This document shows, one piece after another, positions 15,718-52,590 of a stretch of DNA of 64,000 bases (positions are counted from its first letter, which is position 1; each line of letters opens with the position of its first letter). The notes under the pieces were generated by a model. The model did no database searches. It was not told where the DNA came from and saw only the letters and a list, made by a program, of their open reading frames with translations. The stretch lies in contig NZ_ABIZ01000001.1 of NCBI RefSeq assembly GCF_000172155.1, positions 7,721,105 to 7,785,104 of the forward strand, in the 5' to 3' direction. The position numbers and the translations under genes are program-made. Origin of the DNA: Verrucomicrobium spinosum DSM 4136 = JCM 18804. GTDB lineage: Bacteria; Verrucomicrobiota; Verrucomicrobiia; Verrucomicrobiales; Verrucomicrobiaceae.

Positions 15718-15870
15718 CGAATAACTTTCTCTTCCAGCTGGCGCATTGTAACTTCTCATGTGGCGAGTGGGGGGGGCTTGTTCGCGTCAGCAGTTGTTCA
15801 CTGCCGATGCCACACAACTAACGTTAACATAGCCAAAACGTCAACTTACATTTTGAACACCTTTCCCCCT

Positions 15871-31004: not shown

Positions 31005-32354
31005 CAGGCTATACACAGGAAAAGAATCGAAAATCGCAATTTTAACCTCATTCAGGGCATGCCTCCGATCTCTGCCATAGCCTGCTACCCATGGCGCACT
31101 TACGGAGTTGGTTTCGCGCCGTAAATCAACACCACCTCTGGGCACGGGTGTACAGACTCACCAGGGGATCGCTGGTCATCATTCCATTCCCTTCAATAAT
31201 GGCTCCCCTGCCTTGCGGCAGCCTGCTTCACTCTCATCACACCACACCGATTCTCGGTGCCCGAAAGGCAAACATCCCGGCGAAACTCCCGCCCCTCATG
31301 GCACGTGCTCCACGTTTGCGCCGGGCATCAAACTGGTCCCGCCGCACCTCAAAGAACTCATCTACAAAATCCCGGCTTCCCAAGGCCACACCCAGAGTGA
31401 AATACGTCACCCGGTGACGCAGCGTCTCCGCGAAGGTAAGACTACCGTCTTCGGTGCGCACCTGCTCCACCACCTGGCGCTTGATCCCTTTACGCAGGAC
31501 CCGGCTGTCGGAACCGTGACCATCTCGAACCTCCTCCCCCTGGCCAAAGAGCCATACCCGATAGCCGGAAAAGCACTTTAGCCGCACTGGGAAGCCGCTG
31601 CGAACCCCCTGGCTGGTTCCGCTCATGCGCCCGGTGCTCGCTCGTGATCGTGTAAAGGGCTGACAACGCCTTGCGCCCACCCGCCACCGCCTCCGCATAG
31701 CTGCACCAGCGGTAGTCCTTGGGATCCTCCACCAGTCCCGCCCGCACCGGGTTGAGATCAATGTACGCACTCATCACCGAGAGCGTGGCTAACTCACCTT
31801 CCAGCAACACACTGGTGAACCGCTCCTCCCAGAGCGTGCCCTTGCGATTCTCCCGCTTGTTGAACCACAGGCTGAAGCGCTGTTTGAGCTCCTTCATGAA
31901 CTGGCTCACATCCCACATCCGGCCCAGGTATCTTTCCTTGAGTTCTTCGGCCGCCGCGTCATGCCCCTGGCTGCGAAAGGTTTCCAGCGTATCCTTGAGC
32001 ATCCGCACCGCCGGCTTGGAATAGATCAACGCCGCCTGCTTGAGCAGCCAAGAATCCGAATACACCGCCCCTTCAGGCCGCTTCCTGACCTCCACCATGA
32101 TGTGGAAGTGGTTGGACATCACGCAATAGGACAACACCCGCACCTGGCAAAAGCCTTCATAGGCCCGCATCAAGCGCACAAACTGCTCCTTCTCCTCCGG
32201 CCCAAACGCCAGCCGCCTCTCGACCACCCGAGAAATGCAGTGGTAGTAGGCAACCGGGACTAGCGGATCGGCAAAGTATCGAGGCGAAGCCATGGCGGCC
32301 CCATCGCCCTAAAAGACTGCGCAGTCAATTTCCTTCTCTTGTAATAGCCTGTCT
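31002..32354 (-). mobile_element. RAYT element, copy 2, inactive
   Basis: 1353 bp between inverted copies of an 11-bp sequence, AGACAGGCTAT (31002-31012) and ATAGCCTGTCT (32344-32354). It holds one frameshifted transposase gene. The left end is the point where the tannase is truncated. The right end continues into the rest of the 20-bp motif (32344-32363) and lies 149 bp from the next immunity gene. About 220 bp between the left end and the gene stop have no counterpart in copy 1. No target duplication was seen. Confidence 0.7.
31237..32293 (-). pseudogene. RAYT / TnpA-REP Y1 transposase with a 1-bp frameshift
   Basis: The N-terminal 240 residues read normally from ATG 32293 (MASPRYFADPLVPVAYYHCI; HUH motif SNHFHIMVEVR; NKRENRKGTLWEERFTSVLL; YIDLNPVRAGLVEDPKDYRW). 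Near 31573 an extra base, judged by alignment to copy 1, shifts the frame. The C-terminal 100 residues (GYRVWLFGQGEEVRDGHGSD to FRAPRIGVV) continue in another frame. Both copies in the window are therefore dead, by different lesions. As in copy 1, Phe (KQRFS) stands where many Y1 relatives have Tyr. Confidence 0.85.
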
Positions 32355-32503: not shown

Positions 32504-32995
32504 TCACCTCGTTAGGCGCTCTATGTCCAGTTGCTTCTCCTTCATTTGTTCTTCAAGTTGCAGCAATGTATCGGGCACGTTTGCCTTCATCAGGTCAATC
32601 ACTCTTCCGTTTAGCTTTGGAAGTCTCATTTTCACATACTTTGGATGAGACAAGATCAGATCACCGTCAGGCAGGTAAATCCAGCCTTCAGCTACTTTGC
32701 CTCCATCAAAATCCAAGAACTCAACGCGCGCAACGACACCAACTGATGGAATCTCTGGTGCTTCTTCAGATTCGGCCCGAAGAGCTCTTGACAGATCGCT
32801 TGCCCAACCGCTTGCATTGATGCTGCCAACCGGGACAGACACGAAAGCTTCGGCTCGGGTGAAAGGATCTCCGTTCAATTTCTCAACAAAGACATTGCAT
32901 TGAGAAATCTCAGATCGGCCGGCCACTCTCCACCACCAAAAGATGGCGAATGTAGCCACGAGCAGTAACAGGATAGCAATAGTTTTTGGTGTCAC
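32504..32995 (-). CDS. Candidate immunity protein, membrane-anchored
   Basis: 163 residues from a GTG at 32995 that overlaps the toxin stop as GTGA. A GTG three codons upstream (33004) is an alternative. One N-terminal membrane helix (KTIAILLLLVATFAIFWWW) places the rest in the periplasm. The soluble part has a beta-rich core (VEFLDFDGGKVAEGWIYLPD) and a helical C-terminus (LLQLEEQMKEKQLDIERLTR). No family was recognised. Position behind the variable tip of the RHS protein, coupled translation and size support an immunity role, with the toxin met outside the cytoplasm. Confidence 0.7.
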   Translation of the reverse strand: MTPKTIAILLLLVATFAIFWWWRVAGRSEISQCNVFVEKLNGDPFTRAEAFVSVPVGSINASGWASDLSRALRAESEEAPEIPSVGVVARVEFLDFDGGKVAEGWIYLPDGDLILSHPKYVKMRLPKLNGRVIDLMKANVPDTLLQLEEQMKEKQLDIERLTR

Positions 32996-35900
32996 TTTTT
33001 GCACGGGTGTGGGATATGTTTGCCGCAGAATGCGAGCGAATTATGCATATTAAATTTCTCGGCCCATTTAACATAATCTTTTTCGCACCAGATCTTGATC
33101 GTGACGGTCTTGCCTTGGCAACATTTTTCATTGCAAATTTTATCAGCCTTCTCATGGGCTTGCTTTAGCATTCCTGGCAGTTTTGCGTTCATTTTGTCGA
33201 AGAAGTCAATTTGATCCTGTTGCAACTCCGGATCTACCAAAACGTCATCCTCACCAATTCGGGACATAATATCCATTGATGTATCCAAAGACCAACAACT
33301 CAGCGTCCCGAACGCATATCCACAGGGCGCCTTCCAGTTCTCATTTTTCCTCTTCTTCCAAAGCGTATCGATCGTGCTCCAGTGACCAACGTGAAGTTCG
33401 ATTGAGCAATCGTCAGATAGACCCAGTTGATCAGCGCGATTCACTGGATCATTTCGAACCATGCCATACAAGTTAAGACCTCCTCTCTCCGCGATCGGGT
33501 CCCGTGAAAGCCACCGACCAAGTTCGGGATCATAGGGTCTATAGGTGGCCAAGGACAAGCCACTCTCATGCCACCAATGGCCAGTATATCCCCCTCCCCA
33601 CTCCTCCACACCGTCGACGCGTGTGCGTTTGCCCCAAGGCGAATAGCTGTATGATGCCGTCACAGCGCCGTTAGATCCAACGACGACCCTGACAGATCCC
33701 AGATGATCCTTCAGCAAGAAACGCTTTCCGGTCTGGTTCCCTTGCGGATCAAGGATCTCGACGCCACCGCTCCAAAAACGATGCTTGCCACCGCCCACCA
33801 GACGCTCCTCGAGCAGGTTGACATCTTCCCACACCCATTCACGAACCGGAACATCGTCCTTTCGTTCACCAATCCGCCTGTTGGCTCCATCGTAGTCGAA
33901 AGACCATGAACTATTTCCTGCCTCAAAACTGACCAGCCGGTTGCGTGCATCCCAACTGTAGGCACGCGTGCCGTCATTCTTGAGATTGCCATCATTGTCA
34001 TATGTCAGGATCTTATTCTCACCGCTGCCGTTGTCGACCCGCCACGTCTCGGTGACGACGTTTCCCCCTTTGTCGGTGGCCGCTATCGGAACATCATGGG
34101 TTCCGGCACCCAGGTTGGTGGTCAGTTCAAAAATGCCATTTGGGCGAACAAGTGCCGGCAGTCCGTTGACATTTACCTTTGAAGCCTCATTAACCTGGCC
34201 GCGAAACCATGTCATCCCGCCTGAAGCGAGCTCGGTCATCTGGTTGAGATTGTTAAAAGTGGCCGTTCTGGTACGATTGCCATCCTGGGTCAGGGTGCGG
34301 TTTCCGCTGGCGTCATATTGCTCTCGCCATACTTTTTGCATGCCCGGAGAAAGGGGCGCTCCAAGGGGAGTCTCGACCACGGCGGTCATTTGATTGGCAG
34401 CGTCGTAAGAGATCTCCAATCGCCTGCCAGTGCCTAGGCCGGGTTGTTCCTGGTCCCAGGTTGCAATTCCACCATCGGCATGATACGCATAGCTGTAACG
34501 AGCCAGCACCGAGCTTCCAGGACCTTCGTGGACGGTTTGCACCAGTCGGCGATCAGCGTTCACAGGCAGCCGGCTGTATGTGGTTACCAACCCTGTTACA
34601 GGATATTCAAACCTCGAAAGCACCCTGCTGTTACCAACATACGTTGGTGTAAATGTTCCAAGAGGATTGGTCATGACAGCCACACGTCCTAAACTGTCAA
34701 AGGTATAGCTTTCAGTTCCTCCTCCGTAACTCCAAGCACAGAGGCGCCCCCACTGATCGTAGGTATAGGCAACAGTATCATCAGCCAAAGGCCCATCTAT
34801 CTCACTGAGGCGCCCCAACACATCATAGGTGTAATCTGTCGTCTTCATGCCATCGATCCATGTAAGCTGGCGCCCCAGTTCATCGTAGGTGTAGCTTTGG
34901 CTAGGCAGGTCTGGATGGGTGACGCTTTGCAGTCGACCATGGCTGTCATAAGTGCATGTCGTCTGACGGTTTTGTGAATCCCTCCTCCATAACAATCGTC
35001 CCGAACTGGCTTCATATCCGTAGGTCAGTCGACTGTTATCAGGGTATATTTTTGCCGTCACACGGTTCCCACTATCATATTCCCAACGAATCCACTCACC
35101 TCGACCGAAACGCACCTCCTTCACATTACCAACTTTGTCATAGTTGTAAGTTGTCGTCTGTCGGCCAGGGCTCACGGCAGTAGACAACCTCTTCAAGGCA
35201 TCATACCCGAAGCGTGTCACGCCCCCATCCCGAGCCGTGACACTGTTCAAGTTGCAGCAGCTGTAGGCATTGACCAGGGTGGTTGCATCCGGATAGATCG
35301 TCTGCAGCCTCCGATTCAGGTCATCATAGGTGTGCAGCAGCGTGTAGCCGCTGCTGTCGGTTTCCGAGACCGCCCGTCCCGCATCATCATACACATAGGC
35401 GGCCTGTACGATTTCGGTGGGATGCCCATTGGCCTGGAGCTTCACCGTTTCCAAGTACCCTTGGGCGTCATACTCATAGGTGGTCACATCCCCCTTGGGA
35501 TTCGTCGTGGTCACTAATTGTCCCCGGACATTACGCGTGTACTCCGTGCGCAGGCTCGCCTGATCCTCCTCCGCCGTGACATCTCCAGTCACCGGGTCAT
35601 ACTCGGTTTCTGAGAGCACAGTCTCCACACCGTCCACTGTACGCTTGGTGCGCACCTCGTCCACATCATTGGCGGCGTATTCGTAGGTAAATAGGATTCC
35701 GTGACCGTCGTCATGGGTCAGCACCTTACCTTTGCTGTTGTATGTGTAGGTGTCCGCACCCATGGGACTGGTGGTTTGCCCAGGCTGCCCCCCATCGCTG
35801 TAACCCTCGTAGTAGCTTGTGCCACCTCCCTGGTGGTCCGTTGAACTAATCTCCCCTCGTCCATTCACCATAGTGAAGTGATGCACCGTCTTGACGGTTC

Positions 35901-38241
35901 CCTGCTCGCCTTCTTTGTAGTGGTTCTTGTCCCGGTGCCAGTAGACACGGCTGTACCCGTCAAAGTGGTGCTCTTCTTTCGCCCCCATGGCGTCCGTCAC
36001 TGTGATGCGGTAGTTCTCCCACATCACCCCACCCGGTGGCGGGTAACGATCCATACTATTGTTGATGCCATCCGCTGGCTCCGTGTAAAACTGCGTGACG
36101 CCGCTCGGTGTGGTGATGGCACTAAGGAACAACTCGTTGGTGCGGGTCACAAACTGCTCTGGGTCGTTGAGATCCCGCTCCCTTACTTGCGCCGCGGTGG
36201 TGTAGGAGTAGCCATAGGCAACTCCACCCATGTCCGTCTGACCGGTCAATCGACCATTGCCATCGTAGCTGAAGGTGACCTGCCGACCGAACGGATCGTC
36301 GATATGGGAGACTTTCCCGTTGCCGCCATAAACAAAGGTCCAGGTCCCCGTTGGGCTCAGTGTTGTGACCGCCGCCGGATGACTCACGGCCGTGATGGCC
36401 CCCTGGGCATTGTGGGTGATGGTAACCGCCGTTCCATACTTGTCCGTCATGGAGAGCAGCAGGCTGGACGCGCTGCTCCCGCCCATGGCTGGCGGCACAT
36501 CATAGAGAAACTTGGTGCCTGCCGCGTCAGTCAGTTCGAAGCGGTAGCTGTGCCCCGTCACCTTGGTCAGCGTCTTGGTGGCGTTGCGCGCATCTGAATT
36601 GTAGCCCCCGCTGCCGTCAGGGGTGAAGTTCTCGCCCTTTCCTGAACCCGTAATGACTTTCACACTCCCACTGGGATCCACCACCAGATACGAGGCATAA
36701 TTGAGCATCCACTTGTCTCCAAATGGACGGATGGCAATGAGCGAGTCCAGGCTGTTGTAGGTCAGCCCGATCCTCACACTCTTGCCATAGGGGGCATCCC
36801 ACCACATGGGAATGTCCTTGACCACAAGATTCATGTTCATCTCGTTGATCGACCATTCCGGCATGCCGTAGCAGGAGCTGCAGCCGCCGCCCTCGTCATC
36901 GCAACACTCCTCGCAAAGATCGTCTGGATTACGAGGCAGGCCGCAGCATCCACCCATGGCTTCCACCGTCTCCTGAACCGATGCCAGACGCACCCCAGGG
37001 GCGCTCACCTCAGAGAACACCGTGGCCAATCCCGACCACTGGGCGACAAAACCCTTGTGGTCCATCGCCACCGTATGGCCCACACGCGTGTCATACACCT
37101 TCAACTTGCCGTCCTGCTCCCGTCCAACAACTGCCACGAAGTGCCGGTCACGGTAGTGGGCCACTAGCGGCAGCGGCAGCTCTTTGAGCGTGGCCCCGCT
37201 GGCTCGCACTGTGCGGGCCGCCATGCCATACCGACGGGCTGTCTGCTCCAGCTCCTGGATGGTGAATCCATGCGGGCCGGCCGCATCCAGTGCGCGCAGT
37301 TCCCGCGCGTTCGTTTCGTTCCCCATCACTTTGCAGATTTCACCAAGGGACTTTTGCCCACAGTCCCTCAGCGCCGTCTCCTTGGCCTTCATCAAACTCA
37401 AGGCCCGGATCCAATAGGACGCATAAGTCATACGCGCGGGATCCCCGTCATTGGCCCTTAGCTGGGCAAAGAGCTCCGACGCCTTGCTGAGTTCACCACG
37501 GTCCATGGCCACCACGCCAAGACGCAGCAAGGCCTTCTGATGCATAGGTTGCCCCAGGTCCGCCCTGGTCTGGGAGGCCTCAAACCACTTTTGAGCTTCG
37601 TCATATCTGCCAAGGTACTGGCTGGCACAGCCAAGGTGCAGCTCAGACTCCGCTGCCCACGGACTATCGGGATACTTGGTCAGGTGATCGAGAAACAGCA
37701 ACTGTGCCTCGTCATAGTCATGGAGGTTCCACTTCTGAATGGCTTTGCCGAACTCCAGATTGTCCTCTTCTTGCTTCTTGCGGGCGGAGGGATCAGCGAT
37801 GGAGGCAGGGTCAGCCGACCTGGTCGGTTGCAGTTCCTCGCCCAACTGTCCTGCCATGCGCAGATCCTTCTCCGTGGGCACCTTCGTCAGATCGAGCAAC
37901 CGCAGCGTGGTTTTTTCGGTGGGGCGGGCCTCCGAAGTCCAACGTTTCTGATCTTCGGACATCTGTCCCCAAGCCCGCCGCGGTGTTGAGGGAACTTTCG
38001 TCGTGGTAACCAGGGTTGTGCCTGCATTTGGCGATGACTCAGGAGTTGCGATCGGGGAAATGCCAGAAGACGACGCAGTCGGTTTTGGTGGCCCTTGCTC
38101 CGTCACTTGCTTCGTCGGCTGCTCAGCAATTCGAGAGTTCCCTTCACCCACGAAATTCCATGCTGCCATACCAATTGCCGTCAGGGCAGCCCCTGCGAGA
38201 AGCATGGTCCATTTCCGGTTTATTTTCCGTACCTGTGTCAT
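32992..38241 (-). CDS. C39-peptidase RHS polymorphic toxin (system A)
   Basis: 1749 residues. N-terminal membrane helix or uncleaved signal (about 12-32), Pro/Ser/Thr linker, then a conserved stretch from TTLVTTTKVPSTPRRAWGQ. TPR repeats span about 160-285 (YDEAQLLFLDHLTKYPDSPW). A C39-like papain-fold domain (about 290-410) has Cys294 in LRDCGQKSLGEIC, His367 in RDRHFVAVVG and Asp384 in KVYDTRVGH. A Cys-rich knot (about 431-458, CCG...CEECC...CSSCYGMPEW) leads into the RHS/YD-repeat shell, ending RYDPELGRWLSRDPIAERGG and cleavage-like DQLGL. The 141-residue tip (32995-33417) holds nine cysteines and matches no family I know. The ribosome-binding site GAGGA lies before the ATG. The 61 bp upstream separate it from the giant beta-helix gene; the immunity gene overlaps its end. 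Confidence 0.88.
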   Translation of the reverse strand: MTQVRKINRKWTMLLAGAALTAIGMAAWNFVGEGNSRIAEQPTKQVTEQGPPKPTASSSGISPIATPESSPNAGTTLVTTTKVPSTPRRAWGQMSEDQKRWTSEARPTEKTTLRLLDLTKVPTEKDLRMAGQLGEELQPTRSADPASIADPSARKKQEEDNLEFGKAIQKWNLHDYDEAQLLFLDHLTKYPDSPWAAESELHLGCASQYLGRYDEAQKWFEASQTRADLGQPMHQKALLRLGVVAMDRGELSKASELFAQLRANDGDPARMTYASYWIRALSLMKAKETALRDCGQKSLGEICKVMGNETNARELRALDAAGPHGFTIQELEQTARRYGMAARTVRASGATLKELPLPLVAHYRDRHFVAVVGREQDGKLKVYDTRVGHTVAMDHKGFVAQWSGLATVFSEVSAPGVRLASVQETVEAMGGCCGLPRNPDDLCEECCDDEGGGCSSCYGMPEWSINEMNMNLVVKDIPMWWDAPYGKSVRIGLTYNSLDSLIAIRPFGDKWMLNYASYLVVDPSGSVKVITGSGKGENFTPDGSGGYNSDARNATKTLTKVTGHSYRFELTDAAGTKFLYDVPPAMGGSSASSLLLSMTDKYGTAVTITHNAQGAITAVSHPAAVTTLSPTGTWTFVYGGNGKVSHIDDPFGRQVTFSYDGNGRLTGQTDMGGVAYGYSYTTAAQVRERDLNDPEQFVTRTNELFLSAITTPSGVTQFYTEPADGINNSMDRYPPPGGVMWENYRITVTDAMGAKEEHHFDGYSRVYWHRDKNHYKEGEQGTVKTVHHFTMVNGRGEISSTDHQGGGTSYYEGYSDGGQPGQTTSPMGADTYTYNSKGKVLTHDDGHGILFTYEYAANDVDEVRTKRTVDGVETVLSETEYDPVTGDVTAEEDQASLRTEYTRNVRGQLVTTTNPKGDVTTYEYDAQGYLETVKLQANGHPTEIVQAAYVYDDAGRAVSETDSSGYTLLHTYDDLNRRLQTIYPDATTLVNAYSCCNLNSVTARDGGVTRFGYDALKRLSTAVSPGRQTTTYNYDKVGNVKEVRFGRGEWIRWEYDSGNRVTAKIYPDNSRLTYGYEASSGRLLWRRDSQNRQTTCTYDSHGRLQSVTHPDLPSQSYTYDELGRQLTWIDGMKTTDYTYDVLGRLSEIDGPLADDTVAYTYDQWGRLCAWSYGGGTESYTFDSLGRVAVMTNPLGTFTPTYVGNSRVLSRFEYPVTGLVTTYSRLPVNADRRLVQTVHEGPGSSVLARYSYAYHADGGIATWDQEQPGLGTGRRLEISYDAANQMTAVVETPLGAPLSPGMQKVWREQYDASGNRTLTQDGNRTRTATFNNLNQMTELASGGMTWFRGQVNEASKVNVNGLPALVRPNGIFELTTNLGAGTHDVPIAATDKGGNVVTETWRVDNGSGENKILTYDNDGNLKNDGTRAYSWDARNRLVSFEAGNSSWSFDYDGANRRIGERKDDVPVREWVWEDVNLLEERLVGGGKHRFWSGGVEILDPQGNQTGKRFLLKDHLGSVRVVVGSNGAVTASYSYSPWGKRTRVDGVEEWGGGYTGHWWHESGLSLATYRPYDPELGRWLSRDPIAERGGLNLYGMVRNDPVNRADQLGLSDDCSIELHVGHWSTIDTLWKKRKNENWKAPCGYAFGTLSCWSLDTSMDIMSRIGEDDVLVDPELQQDQIDFFDKMNAKLPGMLKQAHEKADKICNEKCCQGKTVTIKIWCEKDYVKWAEKFNMHNSLAFCGKHIPHPCKK

Positions 38242-38847
38242 ACACTGTCCTCGTTCTGAACTGGTTGATCTTTGTCGATTTCTTAGTTTATTCCGTCTGC
38301 TCTCACGGAAGCTTCACCGCATCGCCCGGCTCCCACAGGATGATGGTGGGTGCGGTGGTGTCTCCTGGATCAGGGGCAATCGGGGCATGGAGACTTCCAT
38401 TAAGCGGGTAGGCATCGACGTTGTCGTTGTAGCCATCCCCGTCGGTGTCAGCTTTGAAGGGATCGGTGCCCGCCACGAGTTCGCTGGCGTTGGTGATGCC
38501 ATCACCATCATGATCCAGGTTGACCGAACTGATCACCGGCGCCCCAAACCCGTCCTGATAACCATCACCGTTGGAGTCAGCGAGGTCGGGATTCGTACCC
38601 GCCAGGAGTTCTTGGTAAAGCGTCAGCCCATCGCCATCCTGGTCGCCGAGCCACGCGACAGGCTCAGAGATATTGGCACCTGCGAGAGCAATCGCCTCGT
38701 CCAGATCATCGATACCGTCGTTGTCAGTGTCCGGGTCGGTGGGATCCAGGCCGAAGAACAATTCCAGCAGATTCTCCAGGCCATCGCCCGCAGGAGTGTC
38801 ATCATCGCCATCGGCCGTCTTGGTCAAATTGCCAAAGTATCGCTGCT

Positions 38848-41800
38848 CCCATGCATCAGGCAGGTCGTCGTTGTCGGTATCAACAAACTCATCTGCACCG
38901 AGATCCGACGGCGAAGTGCGCGTCTCGCCATGAATGTCTTTGCCAAGACCAACCAGCGTCACGCCACCTGCAGGATTAATTGCAGGACTGCCGGGCAACA
39001 GCAAACCTTCGGGACTCAGATCAGGATCGACATTCTGACCTCCGAACTCACCACCGCGAATGATGGAATTGCTCACGGTCACCGTGGCTGAAGCAGCTTT
39101 GTGGATCTGTGCCACACCGGCACCCAATCCCGTGTTCCATACGATCGAGTTTTCCACAGACAAGGTGTTGTCCGCATCGATATTGAAAACACCAGAGCTG
39201 GTCGCCTTGTTCTGGCTCACTGTGACGTGAGCAAGACTCAGATCTCCGCGATAGACATGGGCTGCAGCACCTCCTGCAGTCTTGGTGTTGCCGATCAAAA
39301 GACAATTGGTCACCCGGGCCAGCTCATTGGGCTGTGCCAGGGAAACATACAACGCTGAGCCCTGGAGTCCTGTCGCATGCCTGATCACGAAGCCATCCAC
39401 GGCAGAATCCTTCTTCTGAAGGCTGATGCTCGACTGGGCAGAGGTGCCACTGAGCACAGGTGGCACAAGACCACGCTGGCCAAGGATGAGAACCGATTTG
39501 GAGCTGACAGTCAGGGCCTCGGTGTAGGTACCGGGCAATACGAGAATGATCCGGTAGCTGCCAGTTTGAGCGTTGGCCGCAGTCACTGCTGCTGCAATCG
39601 TCTTTTTGACCGTGGCGGTCTCGGGATTCACCGCAGGATTCACCGTGACATCAGGAACCAACGATGCGGGGCTGGAGGTGCTGTTTGCATCCCACGAGCG
39701 GTTGTACTCATAGACGTTTGGGATCCGGTCACCGTCCTTGTCTTCCAATGCGTCCCTGGGATCCAGGGGATCCAGTCCTTTGGCGATCTCATAGTTGTCA
39801 GGAATGCTGTCATCATCCGTGTCCGAATCCCATGGATCTGACCCCGCGGCCAGCTCGGCAGCATCGCCAGTGCCATCCCCGTCTGTGTCTGCTGCGCCAG
39901 GATTGCTTCCGTAGGCATATTCCTGGGCATTGGTCAGACCGTCACCATCGGAGTCCGCGCCGCCATTGGCGGCGAGGTTGCCGATGAAACGCAGCTCCCA
40001 GGAGTCTGGAAGAGCATCACCGTCGCTGTCGCCGTATTCATCCGCTCCGAGATCTGCCGGGCTGGTGCGGGTGTCACCCTGGATATCCTTGGTGACGGAG
40101 GCCAGGTTGACGCCGCCTGAAGGATTGATGGCAGGGCTGCCTGATCGGAGATAGCCATAGACGTCGAGCAAAGGATCGAGATTAATTCCACCATGCTCCC
40201 CACCCAGAATCAGGTTGTTGTCAGCTTCCACCACAGCGTTGCTGCCACCGCTTATTTGCTGCACCCCCACCGTGGTCGTGGGATTCCAGAGGATCGAGTT
40301 ACGGACGCGCACCTTGGTGCCGTAGGACAGGTATATTCCCCGGCCCTGCCCTCCCTCCCCATTCCACTGCCCGCCTTTGTTGTTGAACAGGGTGCAGTGG
40401 TCTACAATGGCTTCCCCTTGTGAAAGGTAAATGCCGGCCCCACTGGAGGCGGCGTTCCCGGTGATCACGCTGTTCACAATCCTCACTTGGGCCAGGTACC
40501 CACTCACGGAAACGTACGCGCCATAGTCACTGAGGTGGAATGGAGAGGTGTGCTTGAGAACCATCCCGTCAAGAACCGACCCGCTTAAGGTAAGATTCAC
40601 GCAAGCAGTGGTAGTGGACGATGCGATCACCGCAGGAGCAGCCACCCGTTCGCTCATCAAGAGAATCCTTTTGGTGCTGAGGTTCAGCCCTGACTCCGGA
40701 TACATCCCTTTTTTCACCATCACGATCTTCCAATCACCGGCTGCAGACTTGGCCGTACTCAGGGCTGTTGTGATCGTCCTCTTCACGGTGGCGGTCTCGG
40801 TCACCACTGCAGGATCCACCGTCACGTCAGGTGTCAGAGTCGCGGGGCTGCTGGCACTGTTCGCGTCCCAAGAGCGATTGTATTCATAGATGTTGGGGAT
40901 GCGGTCCGCGTCTTTGTCTTCCAATGCGTCACGATAGTCCAAGGGGGCCAGAGACTTGCTGATTTCATATCCGTCGGGGATGCCATCATCATCCGTGTCC
41001 GCGTCCCATGGGTTGGTTCCGGCAGTCTGCTCGGCTGCATCATTGGCCCCATCCGCGTCAGCATCCGCAACTGTGGGATTGCTGCTGAAGAGGTATTCTT
41101 GCAGATGAGTCAGACCATCCGCATCTGGATTAGCGGAACCGTTCGAGGAAAGACTGCCGACGAACCTGGTCTCCCACCAGTCAGCCAGACCATCACTGTC
41201 ACTATCGGCATACTCGTCAGCTCCCAAATCGGCTGGGCTGGTTCGGGCTTCCCCATGAATGTCGGTGTTTGCCAGAGAGAAGCCACCTGAGCCCGACGCA
41301 TTGATGGCTGGGCTGCCAGGCAGCAAACATGCGTAACGATCAAGCAATGGATCTGCACCAGAAGCCCCATGTTCAGCCCCGAGGATGATGCTGCTCAAGA
41401 CCTGCACCGTTGCGTATGAATTGACCCAGATCTGAGAGCTTCCTGCAGGGGCTCCGATGTTCCAGACGATGGAATTGCGCATCCGGAGTTTGGCTGAGTT
41501 TTGGACCGCTACCGCCAGACCATTCACGGGGGCAAACTGGTAGACCCCGGCACCAGTGGGCACATTGTTTCTCGTGAATGTGCACTGATCCACAAGACAT
41601 TCACCACCTGCTACCACCATTCCGGCACCGTAGTCGTCGTGATTCTCCTGGATAAAGCAGTTGGAGATGCGCGCCCGAGCCAGTTGCGACAGGGAGAAGT
41701 AAATCCCGTTGGAACTTTGCTGGGGGTTCTGATGCTTGATGACAAACCCATCGACAACTGTATCGGCATAATAAATAGAGAGCGCTACGCTGGCAGTGGT

Positions 41801-43510
41801 CGGAGCGATCTCGGGTGGCGTGGGCGACTTCTCACCAAGCAAGGCGATGCGCTTGCTGCTGAGTGACAGTGCCGCCGTGTATGTACCCTTCTTGACAAAG
41901 ATGAGCTTCCAGTCCCCCGCCTGGGAATTGGCTGCCGAAACGGCAGCCGAGATGGTCTTCTTCACGGTCGCTGTCTCGGGGTTGACCGCAGGGTCAACCG
42001 TCACATCGGGCACGAGAGCCGCAGCCACAGCCGCGTCCGTACCACGGTTGTATTCATAAATATTAGGCACCCGGTCTCCATCCTTGTCTTCTAGGGTATC
42101 TCTGGGATCGACTGGGTTCAACCCCTTGGCAATTTCATAGCCATCGGGAATGGTGTCGTCGTCGGTGTCAGTATCACGTGGGTTGGAGCCAGCAGCCTGT
42201 TCAGCCCCATCATTGGCTCCGTCACCGTCTTCGTCTGCCACAGCTGGATTGGTTCCAAACAGAAATTCCCCAAGATCATTCAAACCATCACTGTCGCCAT
42301 CTGCCATGCCATCATGGCTGAGATTGCCGAAATGGAGCATCTCCCACCATTCCGGAAGACCATCAGCATCTGAATCCACATACTCATCTGCTCCAATGTC
42401 GGGAGGAGAGGTTCTAGACTCACCATGAACATCCTGCGACGGAATGGAAAAGAGCAAACCACCAGCGGGGTTGATTGCTGGACTGGTCGAGAGCAGGTGC
42501 CCTGAACTCGTGAGCAGCGGATCGCTCCCTGAGGCACCCTGCTCGGCGCCTAGCACAACAGAGTTCAGCACTTCCATTTGAGTACCAGGATCACCGTGTA
42601 TTTGTGTGCTACCGCCGGGCAACCCTGGGTTCCAAACGATGGTGTTGCGCAAACGCAACGCCCCATCATCCACATAGATGGCAAGTCCTTCAACCGGTTG
42701 AGAGACAGAATGCCCCGTGGGAACACTGTTGCCAAAGAGGGTGCAATGATCCAGGTGACAATCGCCCCCAGCGAGATAGAGGCCGGCACCTCCATACGAC
42801 TGGAAGTTGGAAGTGATGAACGTGTTCACCATCCGGACCGACATTCCATCATAGAGACTCACGTGGACCCCCCGGGCACTGCTGGAGGCACTCTGATGCC
42901 GGATGACAAAGCCATCCAAGACCACATCCCCGGCGGTAAGGCTGACCGCAGAGTAGTAAGGCTGCCCCACAATCTGCGGCAGATCACTGCCCAACTCCCC
43001 CAACAGCAAGATGCGCTTGTCACCCAAGGATACCGATTCCGTGTAGGTGCCTTTTTTGACCAGGATCACCTGCCAGTCGCCGACGTTGTTGGCATCAGTC
43101 ACGGCGTCGCCGATGGACAAATGGGTGCCCGTTCCATTTACGTCGACGGTGAAGTCCGGCACAAGAGTATCGGGAGTGCCTGCACTGGTGCTGCGGTGAT
43201 ATTCATACAAGTTGGGCACACGATCGCCGTCCTTGTCATCCAGGGCATCCTTTGCGTGTCCCGGGTTCAAGCCCTCGGCTATTTCATAGCCATCTGGAAT
43301 GGTGTCCCCGTCGGAATCGCTTGAGAATGGATTGCTTCCCGCAGCAAACTCGGCCCCATCGTTGGCACCGTCAACGTCTGCATCTGCCACCGCGGGATCC
43401 GAGCCAAATCCGTACTCACCCAGATCATTCAAGCCGTCTGAGTCACCATCAGCTGTACCATCATGCGACAGCCCGCCAAACCTCTGCTGCTCCCACACAT
43501 CAGGCAGGTG
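38848..43510 (-). repeat. Tandem protein modules of about 1.16 kb
   Basis: The TSP3 marker (D.D.D.LP..WE...FGNL) recurs at about 43.50, 42.34, 41.18, 40.00 and 38.85 kb, with intervals of 1149-1178 bp. Each module is one TSP3 segment plus one beta-helix segment of the split giant protein. Confidence 0.75.
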
Positions 43511-44545
43511 GTCCGCATCGGAATCCAGCCATTCATCAGCCCCGATGTCAGGTGCTGTGGCAGTGGGGCGGGGTTCGCCATGGGCATCCTTGCCAGATGT
43601 GTAGAGTACAGCCGCTGCGTTGATGGCGGGTGAATTGGCTTTGAGCGTGCCGTTTCGCGTCACCTGGGGATCCGACGACAGGTTGCCAGTTCCGGCATAG
43701 CCTCCTCTGAAAATCGAGTTGGAGACTTCCAGAGTAGCGCCATTCTCCAAAAGTGTCTCGAAACCCGGGCGATTCCAAAAAATAGAATTGTGAACCGTAA
43801 CTGCGCTGTTGTCCGCATGGATGCCATTGGGTGCATTCCCGATTGCCGTGCAATGAACCACCATTAGATCCGCCCCGTAGACGTAGATTGCGCCGCCCGT
43901 ATCTCCGCCGAAACTATTGTTCAGCAGAATACAGTTGATAAGTGACGGCCGTCCGCCGGAGGCATAGATCGATCCTCCGTAGTAATTGGCGGTGTTCTTA
44001 ATGGTCAGCCCCTCCACCACCACGTTTCCGGAGAGGGAAATCCCGGCATTTGTCCCCTCACCATCAATGATCGTGCTTGCGGCCCCGCCCGCAGAAATCA
44101 ACAAGACATCACCGTAGAAAGAGAGGCTGGTGTTTTCCCATCCTGTGTAGATGCCCGGCTGCACCAAAATGATCTCGTAGTTGTAGGCCGAGTAGCTCGG
44201 TTCATAGAGGCTGGTGTGGGTTCCACCGCCATTGGGATCCACCACGTAGTGAGGTGTGGGAATAGATCCTACCGCAAATGGATCAGAAGAATTTTTGACC
44301 TCGAAGATGTTGGGATAACGATCTCCGTCATAGTCGGCGTGAGCATCGTCCACCAGCGGATTGCATCCGGCAACGATCTCCTCACTGTCCGTCATGCCAT
44401 CGAGGTCCGTGTCGATCGAGTAAGGATTGGTTTCCTCGGTAGCCTCGTCAGCATTGCTGATACCGTCCGAGTCCAGATCCAACCCCTGCATGTTCATGTC
44501 GGCCAGGGTGGTGGCAACCTGCGTCCCCGGATCTGTCCAGGTATC

Positions 44546-46636: not shown

Positions 46637-47206
46637 CTACTTCCGCTTGCTCCCAGCCTCCACAGGTGGTTCACCGCCGCTTTCGAACAGGGCATCGCTG
46701 GCTTCCGTCACGGTCTGACCAGGCTTGGTGAAGGGGCTGGCTGAATACCCTCCCCCTCTGACCGAAATCAGCCAGTCAAGTATCGCGAGCTGGCCTGAAC
46801 TGCCTGTCGCTTCGAAGATCTCCTTGTAGTGAGCTTCCGCTTTGGCAGGGGCAGCCAGGTGGACAACGCGCACCCAGGCAAGTCCATCTGACTTAAGAGC
46901 CGGCGATGTGAGCGCCATGGTGGCGACTTTGAGCAGCGGCGTTGGATCCTCAAGAGGAGATGTCGATTCCAGATAGAAACAAAGGGCGTTCGCCCCATAA
47001 AAGCGGTCTCTCTCGTTTTTCCCCTCAGCAATCGGCTTGATGGCATCGGCAATTCTTTGAGCCGTTGCGACATCCGATTTTCCCCGTGCCAGTCCAAGCT
47101 CCTTGAGAAAGGTCGAATAGACTGGGTCCTCCAGAACTTTCGGCTCCTGCCCCAGGCAGAAAGCGCCAATTCCAAAAACGACGAGAGTCAAAATCTTCGT
47201 TTTCAT
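46637..47206 (-). CDS. Candidate immunity protein, exported (system B)
   Basis: 189 residues from the ATG at 47206, two bases after the toxin stop. An in-frame start at 47242 inside the toxin gene is less likely because it would bury the signal peptide. Signal peptide MKTKILTLVVFGIGAFCLGQ; the mature protein is helical and repeat-like (TAQRIADAIKPIAEGKNERD, AHYKEIFEATGSSGQLAILD), similar to a short HEAT/TPR solenoid. It lacks a lipobox and is predicted to be periplasmic. No family was recognised. The immunity role is inferred from its position directly behind the variable tip. Confidence 0.7.
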   Translation of the reverse strand: MKTKILTLVVFGIGAFCLGQEPKVLEDPVYSTFLKELGLARGKSDVATAQRIADAIKPIAEGKNERDRFYGANALCFYLESTSPLEDPTPLLKVATMALTSPALKSDGLAWVRVVHLAAPAKAEAHYKEIFEATGSSGQLAILDWLISVRGGGYSASPFTKPGQTVTEASDALFESGGEPPVEAGSKRK

Positions 47207-47208
47207 GA

Positions 47209-50200
47209 TTAAGGTCTTACCACTGTTCTCACGAGGCGGCATTTTTCCTTCAGCATGTTTCGCAGGATGTCTGGGGTGTCATCCTGTACTTTGGGATCGA
47301 GTTTGCCACCTCCTGGAGCCTCTAGGTATTTGGGATCAACCGGCTGGCCAGAGGAGGGGTCCAGCACCCCGGCGACACCACCATTCCTCCATGCCGAAAA
47401 GGTACCGCAACCTTCTTTTGTACAAGAAAAACTATCGTCTGGCATCTTTGTGTCTTGCGAGGGAATTGCTTGACGTTTCTTGGCTTTCTCAAAACCCTGT
47501 TCATCTTGAGGTGTTAGACAGCAGCAAAGATAGATCTCTGTCGAACCATTCATGACTCCCTTCGCCGGAAACAACGTATTTTGCAATTCTCCGTTTGGCC
47601 TCAGCCCGGAATGCGAAAGACCGACTACTGGTCCGCCAGCAGGCTTATGGCTGGGAGGCATTGCATGTGTTGCATTATCGCCAATCATCGTGATGAAGTG
47701 GACAATACAGTTCTTGTCTTTCAGATCATCTGGAATCGGAATTGAACGATCGACATCCAGTCCCAAGGCATCAAGATTATTTACGGGATCATTCCCAGCC
47801 ATGCCATAGAGATTGAGTCCCCCGTGCTCCCCTATTGGATCTCTTGATATCCACGAACCACGCTCGGTATCGTAAGCACGGTAGGTTGCGAGGCACAATC
47901 CAGACTCGTGCACATGATAGCCAGCAAATCCCAACCGGGTCAGATCGGCTCCTGCTATGAGTGTGCGCTGCCCCCAAGGACTGTACGAATAACTGGATAC
48001 GACCGCACCCGTTTCGTTCAAAACGACTCGAGTTGAACCCAGAAGATCAGTGAGGTGAAATTGTTTCGCAGTTTGCATGCCGCTCGCATTAAGCACCTCA
48101 ACTCCGCCAGTCCAACATCGCATCTTCCCCCCGCCGCCCAGACGTTCTTCAACGACGTTGGCTCCATGCCACACCGTTTCGCGCGTCTGAGTCGAGTTTT
48201 TTGACTCAACAATTCTTCTTCTCGCCCCATCATATTCCAAAGCCCAGTTGTCTGCGCCAGAATCAATGCTTGTCAGGCAATTGCGATCATTCCATCCGTA
48301 AGAACGGGCTCCATCAGAGAGCATGTTGCCTGCGACATCATAACTCAAGGTCCTGGATGAAGCGCCCCCATTGTCCACCCGCCACAGCTCTGAGGTGACA
48401 TTTCCAGCTTTGTCGGTAGCCACAACAGGAACGTCGTGTTGTCCGGATCCCAACTGCAGGATCGCCTCGAAGACGCCTTCGGGGGACGTTTTTGCAAGTT
48501 GACTATTCACCTCAACTTTTGAACTCTCGTCAACCTGGCCCCTGAACCACGTCATGCCTCCGGCCAACTGGCTGGTGTTTTGATTGAGATTGTTGAAGGC
48601 AAACTGACGTGTCCGATGACCTTCCTGAGCAAGCAAACGATTCCCGCTTGGGTCATACTGGTAGCGCCAGACTGCTTGCGGATTGGGCACCGGGCCTTGA
48701 GCGGGGCTTTCCATCACCGCGTCAAGTTGACCGGCCGAGTCATACTTCATCGTCCAAACTTTTCCTGAACTTATCCCGGGCTGATGCTGACTCCACGTTT
48801 CGATCTTTCCACCGGAGTCATAGGTGTAGTCAAATCGAGCAATTTCAACACTGCCTGAACCCTCATACCGAGTTTCGACTAACCGGCGCCCATGGATGTT
48901 TGTGTCCCTGGAATACGTTGCGGATACGCCTGGTATGGGATACTGGACGCTGGACACCAATCCTGTGTCACCAAGATAGCTAAACGAAAATGTTCCAAGA
49001 GGATTCTCAACATTAGCAATCCGGTCTAGAGAATCGAAAGTGTACGATTCAGCTGCTCCATCATACTCCCAACTGCTCATTCGACCCAAGGAATCGTAAG
49101 TGTATGTGATCGTGTCGTTGGCAAGCGGCCCGTCAATTGAAACAAGCCGGCCAATGGCATCATACTCATAAGAAGTAATGCGCGCACCATCCGTCCACGT
49201 CAGGCGTCTTCCGAGCTCATCATACGTGAAAGATTGCAAGGGCAACGAGTCATGCTGGATGCTCGTCACAAGGCCCAAGGTATTGTATGCGTAAGTTGAC
49301 GCGCGGTTCTCAGTGTCCTTTGTCCAATTCAACCGGCCCGTCAGAGGATCGTATTGCAGGCTGACCTGGGTTCCGTCCGGATTGGTTTTTGCGACAACCC
49401 TGTCAGCTGCATCGTATGCCCACTTCAGCTTTTCACCCCGTCCGAACTGGATTTCCGTCAGATTGCCAACCTTGTCATATGAATAGCTGGCGACCTGCCG
49501 TTGAGGTCCCACCACCGTACGCAGTCTTTTGAGTGCGTCATACCCGTATTGGGTAATGCTGTTATCGCGGCTCTTCACCGAAACCAGGTTGCAGCAACTG
49601 TAGGTGTTTACAGTGGTTTCACCGCCAGGATACGTAGTCTGGATGCGCCTGTTCAAGTCGTCGTAGGTGTACAAAAGCACATAGCCGTCAAAGTTGGACT
49701 GGCCCACCAGCCTTCCGACGTCGTCGTACTCAAATGTTTCGAGGGTGATTTCGTTTGGATGTCCGATCGCCTGCAATTTTACACTTTCAAGCCACCCCGC
49801 CGAATTGTACTGATAGACTGCGACGTCCCCAGAGGCACGAGTCACCGACACCACCTGCCCCCGCGCATTGCGTTCGTATTCAGTACGCAGTCCGGCCTGA
49901 TCCACAGTGGCAGCAAGATCGCCCGTTGTACCATCATACTCGTACTCCGACAGAACGGTTTCCTCTCCATTGAGAAGGCGTTTTACACTGAGGACGTCGA
50001 TGCCGTTGGTGGCGTATTCGTATGAAACTTGCCCTCCATGGCTGGTTGCATGGCTCAGAACCATGCCTCTTGCATTGTAGACAAAAGAGTCAGAATGACC
50101 ATTGGTGCTACTCTTTCCCAGAGGCCGTCCGCCTTGATCATAACTTGAGAAGTAGGTCGTCGCCCCTCCCTGGTGCTTCACCTCTGAAAGCTCCCCCTTG

Positions 50201-52590
50201 CCGTTCACTAATGTATAGTAGTACCTCGTGTGAGGGTCGGCGAGTGCCGCGCTTGCGCCCCCGTATGCAGGAACTCCAGATTTGTAGTGGTTCTTGTCCC
50301 TATGCCAGCCGGTGTAAAGAGCTGCATAGAAGTATTCCTCCTGAGCTCCCAACGGATCGGTGATAGTTATTCGATAACTGGACCACATGGGGCCTCCAGG
50401 AGGCGCATAGGTGTCTGAACCGATCTGGACACCATCCGAGGGCTCCGTCAAGAACTGCGTTGTGCCGCTCGGGGTGGTGATTGCATTCAAAAACAGCTCA
50501 TTTGTCCGGGTGATCGTCTGGGACGGATTGGCTGGATCGGGTTCTGTCACAAGGGAAGCCGTAGTGTAGCCGTAGCCATAGGCGACAGCCCCCATGTCCG
50601 TCTGCCCTGTGAGCCGGTTGTTGACATCATAGGTAAAAGTCGCCTGACGACCAAATGGATCGTCAATGTGCGACACCTTGCCGTTTGCGCCATACACGAA
50701 GCTCCAGGTCCCTGTAGGACTCAGGGTGGTCACTGCCGCAGGATGACTGATAGCCGAAATCGCGCCCTGGACATTGTGAGTGATGTTCAAGGAAGTGCCG
50801 TACTTGTCGGTGATCGACAGCAAGAGGCTCGATGCGCTGCTGCCTCCCATTGCCGGAGGTACATCATACAAGTACTTGGTGCCTTCGCTGTCTTCCAACT
50901 CAAATCGGTAGTTGGAGCCCGCAAGTTTGCGCAAAACCTTCGAGGCCACCCGGGCATTTGCAACGAACCCCTCGTTTCCGTCTGGAGTGAATCGCTCAGC
51001 CCTGGCATCACCACGAATCACCAGCACTGCGCCACCAGGTTCCACCACGAGATAAGACGCGTAGGCGAAAGTCCACTTGGGACCGAACGGACGGACGTCA
51101 ATGAGCGAATCGAGACTGTTGTAGGTAAGGCGCATTTCGACACTGGGTCCATAGGGTGCATCCCACCACATCGGTGTATCTCGCACGATGAGGTTCATGT
51201 TGACGGGATTGACCACCCACTCAGGCATCCCCCGGCATGAAGAGCACTTGCCCCCTTCACAATCATCCCCCAAGTCATCGGGATACCTGGGCTCACCACA
51301 ACATCCGCCAATAGCCTCCTGCGTCTCCTGCACCGAGGCCAGCCGTATCCCCGGCTGCTCCGGCACCCCGGCAAACACCGTGGCCAGCCCAGACCACTGC
51401 GACACAAATCCTGCATGCGTCATCGAGATCACATGTCCCACACGCGTGTCATACACCTTCACCTTCCCATCTCCCTCACGCCCCAGCACCGCCACAAAAT
51501 GCTGATCCCGATAGTGCGCCACCAGCGGAAGCGGTAGATCCTTCAAGGTCGATCCACTGGCACGCACCGTGCGGGCCGCCATCCCATACCGCCGGGCCGT
51601 CTGCTCCAGCTCCTGAATGGTGAAGCCGTGCGTCCCAGCAGCCTCCATTCCCTTCAGTTCTCGCGCGTTCATCTCCAGTCCCAGCACACTGCAGATCTCG
51701 CCCAGGGACTTCTGGCCACAGTCACGCAGGGCGGTCTGCTTGGCCTTCATCAACCCCAAGGCACGAATCCAATAGGACGCATAGGTCATCCGTGAAGGGT
51801 CGCTGTCGTTCTGCCGGAGACGCGCAAACAGCTCGGTCGCCTTGTCCAGTTCCCCGCGATCCATGGCCACCACGCCCAGACGCAGAAGCGCCTTCTGGTG
51901 CATCGGGTGTCCCAGCGGAGCCCGGCTCTGTGACGCCTCGAACCACTTTTGAGCTTCGTCATATCTGCCAAGGTACTGGCTGGCACAGCCAAGGTGCAGC
52001 TCAGACTCCGCCGCCCAGGGACTTTCAGGAAACTTCGTGAGATGATCCACAAACAACAGCTGTGCCTCGTCATACTCATGGAGGTTCCACTTCTGAATGG
52101 CCTTTCCAAAGTCAAGGTTGTCCGCCTCCTGCTTCTTGCGGGCGGCGGCATCGGCAATACCTGCGGGATCGGCTGCTCGTGTCGGTTGAAGCTCGTCCCC
52201 CAGCTGTCCTGCCATGCGCAGATCCTTCTCCGTGGGCACCTTCGTCAGATCGAGCAACCGCAGCGTGGTTTTTTCAGTGGGACGCGCTTCCGCAGTCCAG
52301 CGCTTTTGTTCTTCAGACACCTGCCCCCAGGTCCGCCGCGGCGTGGAGGGAACTCTCGTCGTAGTAACCAAAGTCGTGCCTGGCACCTTTGCCGCTTCGC
52401 TCTCCTTTTCTCCAGCAGTGATGTTTGTCGTACCACGGGAAGAGTTCCCAACAAGCTGATCGCCACTTTGGCCTCCCGGATCCGGCACCCTGTCCTGTTG
52501 ATGATTCCACACCACGACTGCCAAAGCAGCAGCTACTCCTCCTATCCCGAGCGTAGTCAGGAGCTTCTTCATCTTGTGATAACGGATCAT
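47209..52590 (-). CDS. C39-peptidase RHS polymorphic toxin (system B)
   Basis: 1793 residues with the same plan as systems A and C. A membrane helix (LTTLGIGGVAAALAVVVW) and variable linker lead to the conserved TTLVTTTRVPSTPRRTWGQ block and TPRs. The C39-like domain has Cys in LRDCGQKSLGEIC, His in RDQHFVAVLG and Asp in KVYDTRVGH. The Cys knot (CCGEPRYPDDLGDDCEGGKC, then SSCRGMPEW) precedes the RHS shell, which ends SWISRDPIGEHGGLNLYGMA and DALGL. The tip of 182 residues (47212-47757) contains a CCC cluster (EIYLCCCLTP) and Gly/Pro-rich segments. I do not recognise it. Unlike A and C it has no beta-helix gene upstream; the immunity lipoprotein of system C lies there instead. ATG 52590 is used; an ATG six codons later is possible. 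Confidence 0.88.
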   Translation of the reverse strand: MIRYHKMKKLLTTLGIGGVAAALAVVVWNHQQDRVPDPGGQSGDQLVGNSSRGTTNITAGEKESEAAKVPGTTLVTTTRVPSTPRRTWGQVSEEQKRWTAEARPTEKTTLRLLDLTKVPTEKDLRMAGQLGDELQPTRAADPAGIADAAARKKQEADNLDFGKAIQKWNLHEYDEAQLLFVDHLTKFPESPWAAESELHLGCASQYLGRYDEAQKWFEASQSRAPLGHPMHQKALLRLGVVAMDRGELDKATELFARLRQNDSDPSRMTYASYWIRALGLMKAKQTALRDCGQKSLGEICSVLGLEMNARELKGMEAAGTHGFTIQELEQTARRYGMAARTVRASGSTLKDLPLPLVAHYRDQHFVAVLGREGDGKVKVYDTRVGHVISMTHAGFVSQWSGLATVFAGVPEQPGIRLASVQETQEAIGGCCGEPRYPDDLGDDCEGGKCSSCRGMPEWVVNPVNMNLIVRDTPMWWDAPYGPSVEMRLTYNSLDSLIDVRPFGPKWTFAYASYLVVEPGGAVLVIRGDARAERFTPDGNEGFVANARVASKVLRKLAGSNYRFELEDSEGTKYLYDVPPAMGGSSASSLLLSITDKYGTSLNITHNVQGAISAISHPAAVTTLSPTGTWSFVYGANGKVSHIDDPFGRQATFTYDVNNRLTGQTDMGAVAYGYGYTTASLVTEPDPANPSQTITRTNELFLNAITTPSGTTQFLTEPSDGVQIGSDTYAPPGGPMWSSYRITITDPLGAQEEYFYAALYTGWHRDKNHYKSGVPAYGGASAALADPHTRYYYTLVNGKGELSEVKHQGGATTYFSSYDQGGRPLGKSSTNGHSDSFVYNARGMVLSHATSHGGQVSYEYATNGIDVLSVKRLLNGEETVLSEYEYDGTTGDLAATVDQAGLRTEYERNARGQVVSVTRASGDVAVYQYNSAGWLESVKLQAIGHPNEITLETFEYDDVGRLVGQSNFDGYVLLYTYDDLNRRIQTTYPGGETTVNTYSCCNLVSVKSRDNSITQYGYDALKRLRTVVGPQRQVASYSYDKVGNLTEIQFGRGEKLKWAYDAADRVVAKTNPDGTQVSLQYDPLTGRLNWTKDTENRASTYAYNTLGLVTSIQHDSLPLQSFTYDELGRRLTWTDGARITSYEYDAIGRLVSIDGPLANDTITYTYDSLGRMSSWEYDGAAESYTFDSLDRIANVENPLGTFSFSYLGDTGLVSSVQYPIPGVSATYSRDTNIHGRRLVETRYEGSGSVEIARFDYTYDSGGKIETWSQHQPGISSGKVWTMKYDSAGQLDAVMESPAQGPVPNPQAVWRYQYDPSGNRLLAQEGHRTRQFAFNNLNQNTSQLAGGMTWFRGQVDESSKVEVNSQLAKTSPEGVFEAILQLGSGQHDVPVVATDKAGNVTSELWRVDNGGASSRTLSYDVAGNMLSDGARSYGWNDRNCLTSIDSGADNWALEYDGARRRIVESKNSTQTRETVWHGANVVEERLGGGGKMRCWTGGVEVLNASGMQTAKQFHLTDLLGSTRVVLNETGAVVSSYSYSPWGQRTLIAGADLTRLGFAGYHVHESGLCLATYRAYDTERGSWISRDPIGEHGGLNLYGMAGNDPVNNLDALGLDVDRSIPIPDDLKDKNCIVHFITMIGDNATHAMPPSHKPAGGPVVGLSHSGLRPNGELQNTLFPAKGVMNGSTEIYLCCCLTPQDEQGFEKAKKRQAIPSQDTKMPDDSFSCTKEGCGTFSAWRNGGVAGVLDPSSGQPVDPKYLEAPGGGKLDPKVQDDTPDILRNMLKEKCRLVRTVVRP

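Follow-up and report, generated by a model that had tools for sequence, protein, structure and literature searches.

The peptidase domains of the PCAT/AMS exporters, such as LahT, PCAT1 and ComA, act on double-glycine leaders, which have been searched for with the formula LSX2ELX2IXGG (PMC7494827) and whose cleavage sites are given as GG, GA or GS (PMC10885120). A C39 peptidase is also described outside an exporter: FapD of the Fap amyloid system, a periplasmic protein bearing a Sec signal, works without an exporter, and secretion of FapC is reported to need its active-site Cys (PMC5557850). RHS proteins, for their part, may be processed. In TseI and RhsA, effectors of the type VI secretion system (T6SS), cleavage takes place at either end of the RHS part (PMC7170923, PMC8765631), and the mechanism of the N-terminal cut is called unclear in one account (PMC7170923) and as yet unknown in the other (PMC8765631). 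A survey of polymorphic toxins describes several autoprocessing peptidases, papain-like ones included, and counts C39-like domains among the toxin domains (PMC3482391). Here we analyse a stretch of 64,000 nucleotides from Verrucomicrobium spinosum DSM 4136 (the window), which encodes three proteins, P0001, P0002 and P0003, each composed of TPRs, a C39 peptidase domain, an RHS shell and a variable C-terminal region, with a leader-like double-glycine segment directly behind the peptidase. Judging from sequence comparison and predicted structures, we put the chance at about two in three that the C39 domain cuts its own chain after G430-G431 (P0001 numbering) and separates the RHS shell from the TPR-C39 piece.

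32992-38241, minus strand: P0001, a TPR-C39-RHS protein of 1749 residues; 37000-37400 encodes its residues 281-414
38137-38241, minus: N-terminal basic and hydrophobic stretch of P0001, putative signal peptide or membrane anchor (hydropathy peak only)
37417-37764, minus: P0001 TPR region, about residues 160-275 (Pfam TPR models, structural matches)
37006-37386, minus: P0001 C39 peptidase domain, residues 286-412 (PF03412, triad, predicted fold)
37360-37362, 37141-37143 and 37090-37092, minus: P0001 triad codons for Cys294, His367 and Asp384
36949-36987, minus: P0001 leader-like double-glycine segment LASVQETVEAMGG, residues 419-431, predicted cut after Gly431
36868-36948, minus: P0001 Cys-rich linker CCGLPRNPDDLCEECC, residues 432-458, from the predicted cut to the shell (pLDDT under 50)
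33418-36867, minus: P0001 RHS/YD-repeat shell and Rhs-associated core, residues 459-1608, core end DPIAERGGLNLYGMVRNDPVNRADQLGL
32995-33417, minus: P0001 variable C-terminal region, residues 1609-1749, in a toxin-like position
47209-52590: P0002, second protein of the same build
51364-51744, minus: P0002 C39 domain, residues 283-409 (PF03412)
51304-51342, minus: P0002 leader-like segment LASVQETQEAIGG, residues 417-429
53207-58453: P0003, third protein of the same build
57227-57607, minus: P0003 C39 domain, residues 283-409 (PF03412)
57170-57208, minus: P0003 leader-like segment LASVQETVEAMGG, residues 416-428

The C39 domain in three RHS proteins

The C39 domains score 62.3, 63.2 and 59.3 bits against PF03412 in P0001, P0002 and P0003, respectively (curated cut-off 22), and in all three the motifs around Cys, His and Asp follow one another as in C39 peptidases, as a first-pass annotation of the window had pointed out (Cys294, His367 and Asp384 in P0001; Cys291, His364 and Asp381 in P0002 and P0003). 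No further match to this model reaches E <= 0.001 anywhere in the genome (8.22 Mb), which speaks against a role of the domain as helper to an exporter of the same kind. With P0001 as query, a fourth, distant paralogue (L024) was found at 6.99 Mb; its C39 domain, 21% identical to that of P0001, is missed by the PF03412 model, and its C-terminus matches Ntox33 (39.2 bits, cut-off 28.4). The remainder of the three proteins has the features of RHS polymorphic toxins, namely YD repeats, an Rhs-associated core, a constant body and a variable C-terminus. The P0001 shell scores 136.5 bits with PF05593 and 68.9 bits with TIGR03696 (cut-off 32.5), and the Pfam scan listed no match for the C-terminal residues 1609-1749. 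The Rhs core of P0001-P0003 was located by a sequence pattern, which is too strict family-wide (10 of 35 proteins) and was applied to the window copies only. Several Pfam TPR models match P0001, every one below its cut-off, and its predicted structure matches TPR domains in the VIA comparison (for example 2xev_C, Z 15.7).

Two AlphaFold models of P0001, each made with 7 sequences, cover residues 100-640 and 272-487. Because the initial VIA matches of the longer model were mostly to TPR structures, the C39 part was folded alone; the mean predicted local distance difference test score (pLDDT) is 65.3 for the longer model and 70.0 for the shorter one, in which blocks reach 80-93 over model residues 21-160. 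The best Foldseek match of the shorter model is 6mpz_D, LahT with bound leader (E 1.6e-6, probability 1.00), followed by PCAT1 and ComA, and all 30 chains at E <= 0.001 belong to PCAT1, ComA, LahT, C39-like domains (HlyB type included) or papain-like toxin domains. In VIA, 122 residues align to 6mpz_B (Z 14.8, root-mean-square deviation 2.8), tied with the papain-like toxin 9l5u_B. The modelled domain has a papain-like C39 fold, the outcome that the first-pass annotation had expected of a structure prediction.

Identity between the three copies is 88-95% in the TPR region, 80-94% in the C39 domain, 53-62% in the later shell and 23-31% at the C-terminus. By comparison of the coding sequences they are not fresh duplicates, because the synonymous divergence (dS) in the C39 domain is large (0.54-1.23). 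The ratio of nonsynonymous to synonymous divergence (dN/dS) is 0.046-0.114 there and 0.067-0.086 in the TPR region; since the latter is as constrained, the low value in the C39 domain is not specific to catalysis. It had been argued earlier that conservation of the triad in three divergent copies speaks for activity. The conservation holds, but the copies are near-identical in the C39 domain, which makes them weak evidence on catalysis, and relatives were therefore brought in.

Conservation of triad and site across the family

A 4-member profile had matches in 29 of 387 genomes drawn from the phylum, and a 23-member profile in 75 of 384 genomes drawn from the class and in 44 of the 387; exporter-type proteins and C39-less RHS proteins are among these counts, and scoring was limited to the top 7 or 8 candidates per genome. 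Proteins of the C39-RHS type, read from the match tables by eye and with fragments included, occur in 35 of the 384 class-draw genomes (36 if G525 is added, a weak match that stands in the alignment as L142) and in 13 of the 387 phylum-draw genomes. A pattern scan of 84,980 species genomes, too insensitive to imply absence elsewhere, returned 4 loci, all in Verrucomicrobia, and a plasmid search gave 4 weak C39 matches, none reaching 80% coverage. The alignment comprises 58 rows, or 57 distinct members after a P0003 duplicate is dropped, with the window copies and L024 included; duplicates, L070 (at a contig end), the exporter-type L044-L056 and L058, the weak L057 and the RHS proteins without C39 (L077, L126-L141) were left out. 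Members below 70% identity make up 49 representatives, and member groups were assigned by eye. Two other genomes contain tandem, near-identical copies of C39-RHS genes (L065, G174:C43; L142, G525:C13).

The triad is conserved throughout this family: the Cys is present in 57 of the 57 distinct members, the His in 56 and the Asp in 55 (49, 48 or 98%, and 47 or 96%, of the representatives). Neither Cys nor His varies among the window copies and the nearest relatives seen (L026-L028), where variation had been named as a sign against an active peptidase. One member, L118 (G408:C243), keeps the Cys but has Leu at the place of the His, a very Gly-rich linker and GGCCG further on, and is possibly a dead copy.

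Only five of 219 columns are fully invariant in the 49 representatives. One of them is the catalytic Cys, and another is a Gly that occupies the same place directly behind the C39 domain in every aligned member (57 of 57) and corresponds to position P2 of a double-glycine leader. In P0001, P2 is Gly430, P1 is Gly431 and P1' is residue 432, and the Gly pair lies 18-19 residues past the end of the domain at residue 412, a distance that is larger in some relatives. GG-CCG is the form of the site in the window copies and in some relatives (GGCCG in 15 of 49 representatives), whereas the others mostly have G-[KRS]-G or similar; over the 57 members, P1 is Gly in 20, Lys in 19, Arg in 14, Ser in 3 and Gln in 1.

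The residues ahead of this Gly resemble a leader. P8 is Glu in 44 and Asp in 6 of the 57 members, and P4 is Val, Ile or Phe in 44. Among the 49 representatives, P12 is hydrophobic in 39, P11 Ser or Thr in 24, P8 Glu or Asp in 42, P7 Leu, Met, Ile, Val or Ala in 28, P4 hydrophobic in 40 and P2 Gly in 49. These classes were set with the leader formula as a guide. Matches at P12, P11, P8, P7 and P4 add up to 173, versus a mean of 54.9 and a maximum of 84 in 5000 trials in which the residues within each representative's segment were shuffled, a comparison that ignores relatedness, uses residue classes set after the counts were known and does not amount to a probability; shifting the register by 1-3 residues lowers the sum to 26-52. 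By one and the same pattern, the motif is found in 39 of the 49 members with C39 and in 0 of 17 RHS proteins without it, some of which do contain a Cys-rich linker.

In both models, residues 422-427 (P10-P5) form a helix and residue 429 (P3) lies in a strand or bridge, as does residue 430 (P2) in the first. Mean pLDDT is 83 and 80 in the two models for the blocks that finish at the site or next to it, and from residue 432 (P1') pLDDT is under 50 in both. The LahT crystal structure is described with a two-turn leader helix from P4 to P11 and an extended stretch from P1 to P3 (PMC6363468). On these models, the leader-like segment may dock into the C39 active site.

Probable self-cleavage and its alternatives

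How might a C39 domain serve an RHS protein? Probably, it acts as the peptidases of bacteriocin exporters do on double-glycine leaders, with a segment of its own chain as substrate. The leader would fold back into the groove of its own C39 domain as a short helix, Cys294 would attack after Gly430-Gly431, and the RHS shell together with the C-terminal toxin-like part would be released from a TPR-C39 piece that bears the anchor or signal. That the domain may cleave the RHS protein itself had been among the suggestions of the first-pass annotation, and this suggestion is strengthened by the leader-like double-glycine site on the same chain, which was not part of it. Action in cis is suggested by the nearness of the site and by the models, and cutting in trans between two copies of the RHS protein may also occur. 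Most of the members examined have a hydrophobic stretch near the N-terminus (judged by hydropathy only; L029 and L115 are without a start or clear peak), which together with the precedent of FapD points to an exported, probably periplasmic location. The Rhs core motif, at the far end of the shell, resembles a known aspartyl self-cleavage site; both shell ends may therefore be self-processed.

The likeness to the PCAT/AMS exporter peptidases extends to the fold, the order of Cys, His and Asp, the register of the P2 Gly and, in the models, a leader helix with an extended end. Unlike those peptidases, the RHS protein has no ABC transporter, the rest being TPR and RHS, and it would have its substrate on the same chain behind an export-type N-terminus; the family also mostly lacks the Gln that exporters keep and often has Lys or Arg at P1. 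FapD likewise works outside an exporter, but is described as a separate protein with an unclear target and has no RHS shell (PMC5557850). With TseI and RhsA the proteins share an RHS shell for which two cuts would apply, one close to the N-terminal edge and one in the C-terminal core, here with a C39 domain and a leader-like site at the predicted N-terminal cut. No Pfam match to PAAR or prePAAR was seen at E up to 1 in P0001-P0003, and T6SS genes were not searched for. The survey of polymorphic toxins offers the parallel of a processing peptidase inside a toxin protein, whereas it names C39 as a toxin domain (PMC3482391). Searches of an open-licence library brought up no paper about a C39 peptidase paired with its own site at an RHS shell edge. 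We regard as close to an even bet, leaning slightly against, a more far-reaching account, whereby a bacteriocin-type leader peptidase and its leader have been built into the RHS N-terminal edge as an exported intramolecular self-cutter and many members have exchanged the P1 Gly for Lys or Arg, with the register kept and a new C39 specificity.

A number of observations weigh against self-cleavage. The triad has exceptions (Leu for His in L118, one Glu for Asp and one gap at Asp), and recruitment by profiles containing both C39 and site favours members that keep both. A Gln six residues before the Cys, the proposed oxyanion residue, occurs in 3 of 57 members and, among the window copies, only in P0002, with Glu in P0001 and P0003; Pro (30) and Ala (12) are commonest at this position. 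In the exporter-type C39 domains from the search with the 4-member profile, classed as exporters by eye, the Gln is present in 14 of 14. The triad, previously described as intact, is thus complete in its three residues, with the Gln as a caveat. This accessory residue is not demanded by the Pfam model, and the objection is softened because in LahT the Gln is reported to lie 4.3 A from the oxygen and the His may fill its role (PMC6363468). At the site itself, 33 of the 57 members have Lys or Arg at P1. Where leaders are hydrophobic, the window copies carry Ala (P12, P4) or Thr (P7), and P4 is Glu, Glu and Gln in L026, L027 and L028, respectively. In the account of LahT, acidic or basic variants at P4 and P7 and most variants at P12 went unprocessed (PMC6363468), and since the window copies have Ala at P12, both self-cleavage and the new-specificity account are weakened. 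With Ala at both P12 and P4, none of P0001-P0003 yields a site by the strict leader pattern. The loose pattern hits their site together with others, 2 or 3 places per protein, and the case for the site in the window copies rests on alignment with relatives. As to the models, each is based on 7 sequences only, the drop of pLDDT at P1' may simply mark the start of the variable linker, and the HlyB C39-like domain (3zua), which does not cut, also matches (E 2.2e-4). Finally, the 17 controls without C39 resemble the family at the start of the shell but have none of the N-terminal part; they show that site and domain occur jointly and do not tell which of the two depends on the other.

Part of this would fit a C39 domain that binds the leader-like segment but leaves it uncut, serving as a dock or plug within the molecule in the way of the HlyB C39-like domain. 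The Gln is absent in 54 of 57 members, Lys and Arg are common at P1, P12, P7 and P4 of the window copies are not hydrophobic, the HlyB domain is among the structural matches, and the models place the segment with good pLDDT, all of which a dock would accommodate. A nucleophile, however, is needless for pure docking, and the triad is nearly invariant. Domains of the HlyB type have lost the catalytic Cys, a loss seen in none of the 57 members. We therefore think a dock without cutting unlikely. A toxic role for the C39 domain itself, as in the papain-like CdiA and Cpe1 toxins, would be in line with its structural similarity to 9l5u and 8ssm and with the reported cleavage of GyrB and ParE by Cpe1 at double-glycine sites (PMC12136450). 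Cpe1 and CdiA-CT indeed exemplify C39-like folds in polymorphic toxins, with double-glycine specificity in Cpe1 (PMC3482391, PMC12136450), but there the domain is the toxin, whereas here it is N-terminal of the shell, in the constant half of the protein. The variable part sits where such toxins do, C-terminal behind the Rhs core, and it is there that the paralogue L024 has its Ntox33 match; we give a toxic C39 domain very little credence.

Processing of another protein would require a substrate, and the beta-helix partner genes had been put forward as one. Two such genes are in the window:

38303-44497, minus: upstream partner gene, beta-helix-like with TSP3 repeats (PF18884 53.4 bits, PF01095 47 bits)
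58515-63998, minus: second partner gene, extending past the window end (PF18884, PF01095, PF13229), 90% identical to the first partner

In 26 of the 39 family rows examined, one being a second row of L065, there is an upstream gene whose product ends in a conserved tail (the tail pattern gave 30 of 39, from which four spurious frames, in L108, L115, L121 and L122, were dropped by eye). GG pairs number 26 and 21 in the two window partners, which also contain three or four loose leader-like sites, as might be expected if the C39 domain were active in trans on the partner or another exported protein. A scan with the strict pattern found no site in either partner, but the RHS proteins of the window equally lack one, and this test alone is not decisive. 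Two unconvincing frames were the only other strict candidates among the open frames of the window. Against action in trans, the invariant site sits within the RHS protein, and the 13 of 39 rows without a tailed partner within about 1.5 kb still keep the C39 domain (L118 minus the His) and the Gly. Processing of the beta-helix partner thus finds no support, and we consider cleavage of a separate protein improbable.

Neighbouring genes and implications

The partners may be linked to the RHS proteins in a different way. Their conserved tail resembles TPPVITITEPxxGAxL, which we take to look like the strand that opens an Ig-like domain. All four C39-RHS proteins encoded in the genome contain a Glucodextran_B-type domain whose match starts at profile position 18-22 of 83, so that the first 17-21 positions are absent in all four copies; the match starts at 19 in L026, and L065 has no match yet has a tail upstream. 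Donor-strand complementation between partner tail and RHS Glucodextran_B domain is possible on this sequence evidence. A sequence pattern for the Ig-like stretch matched 9 of the rows listed and missed P0002 and P0003, though Pfam matches both, and a Protein Data Bank search with the stretch gave no match below E 0.095. The longest open reading frame (ORF) of the first partner starts without an evident signal peptide, and its true start may be elsewhere. In L145, beta-helix and RHS are fused in one frame.

Small ORFs follow the RHS genes; the two scanned against Pfam (32504-33004 and 46637-47242) gave no match. One ORF, from the ORF list, may encode an immunity protein:

52817-53188, minus: candidate immunity gene, a lipoprotein-like ORF of 123 residues between P0003 and P0002

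An IS200-like transposase gene (31490-32293; PF01797, 49.4 bits) adjoins the first RHS gene. Another RHS protein is encoded at 6508-15759, where no PF03412 match was found; we take it to have RCC1-like N-terminal repeats and a Hint-like stretch near its end.

In the C39-RHS proteins, a protease and a recognisable site adjoin at the same kind of place as the N-terminal cut of T6SS effectors. With the two side by side, a single substitution would suffice to test the N-terminal cutting. If self-cleavage is true, these proteins would provide a C39 peptidase that works without an exporter and in cis, and the P1 series of the family, from Gly through Lys and Arg to Ser and Gln, would be natural material on C39 specificity.

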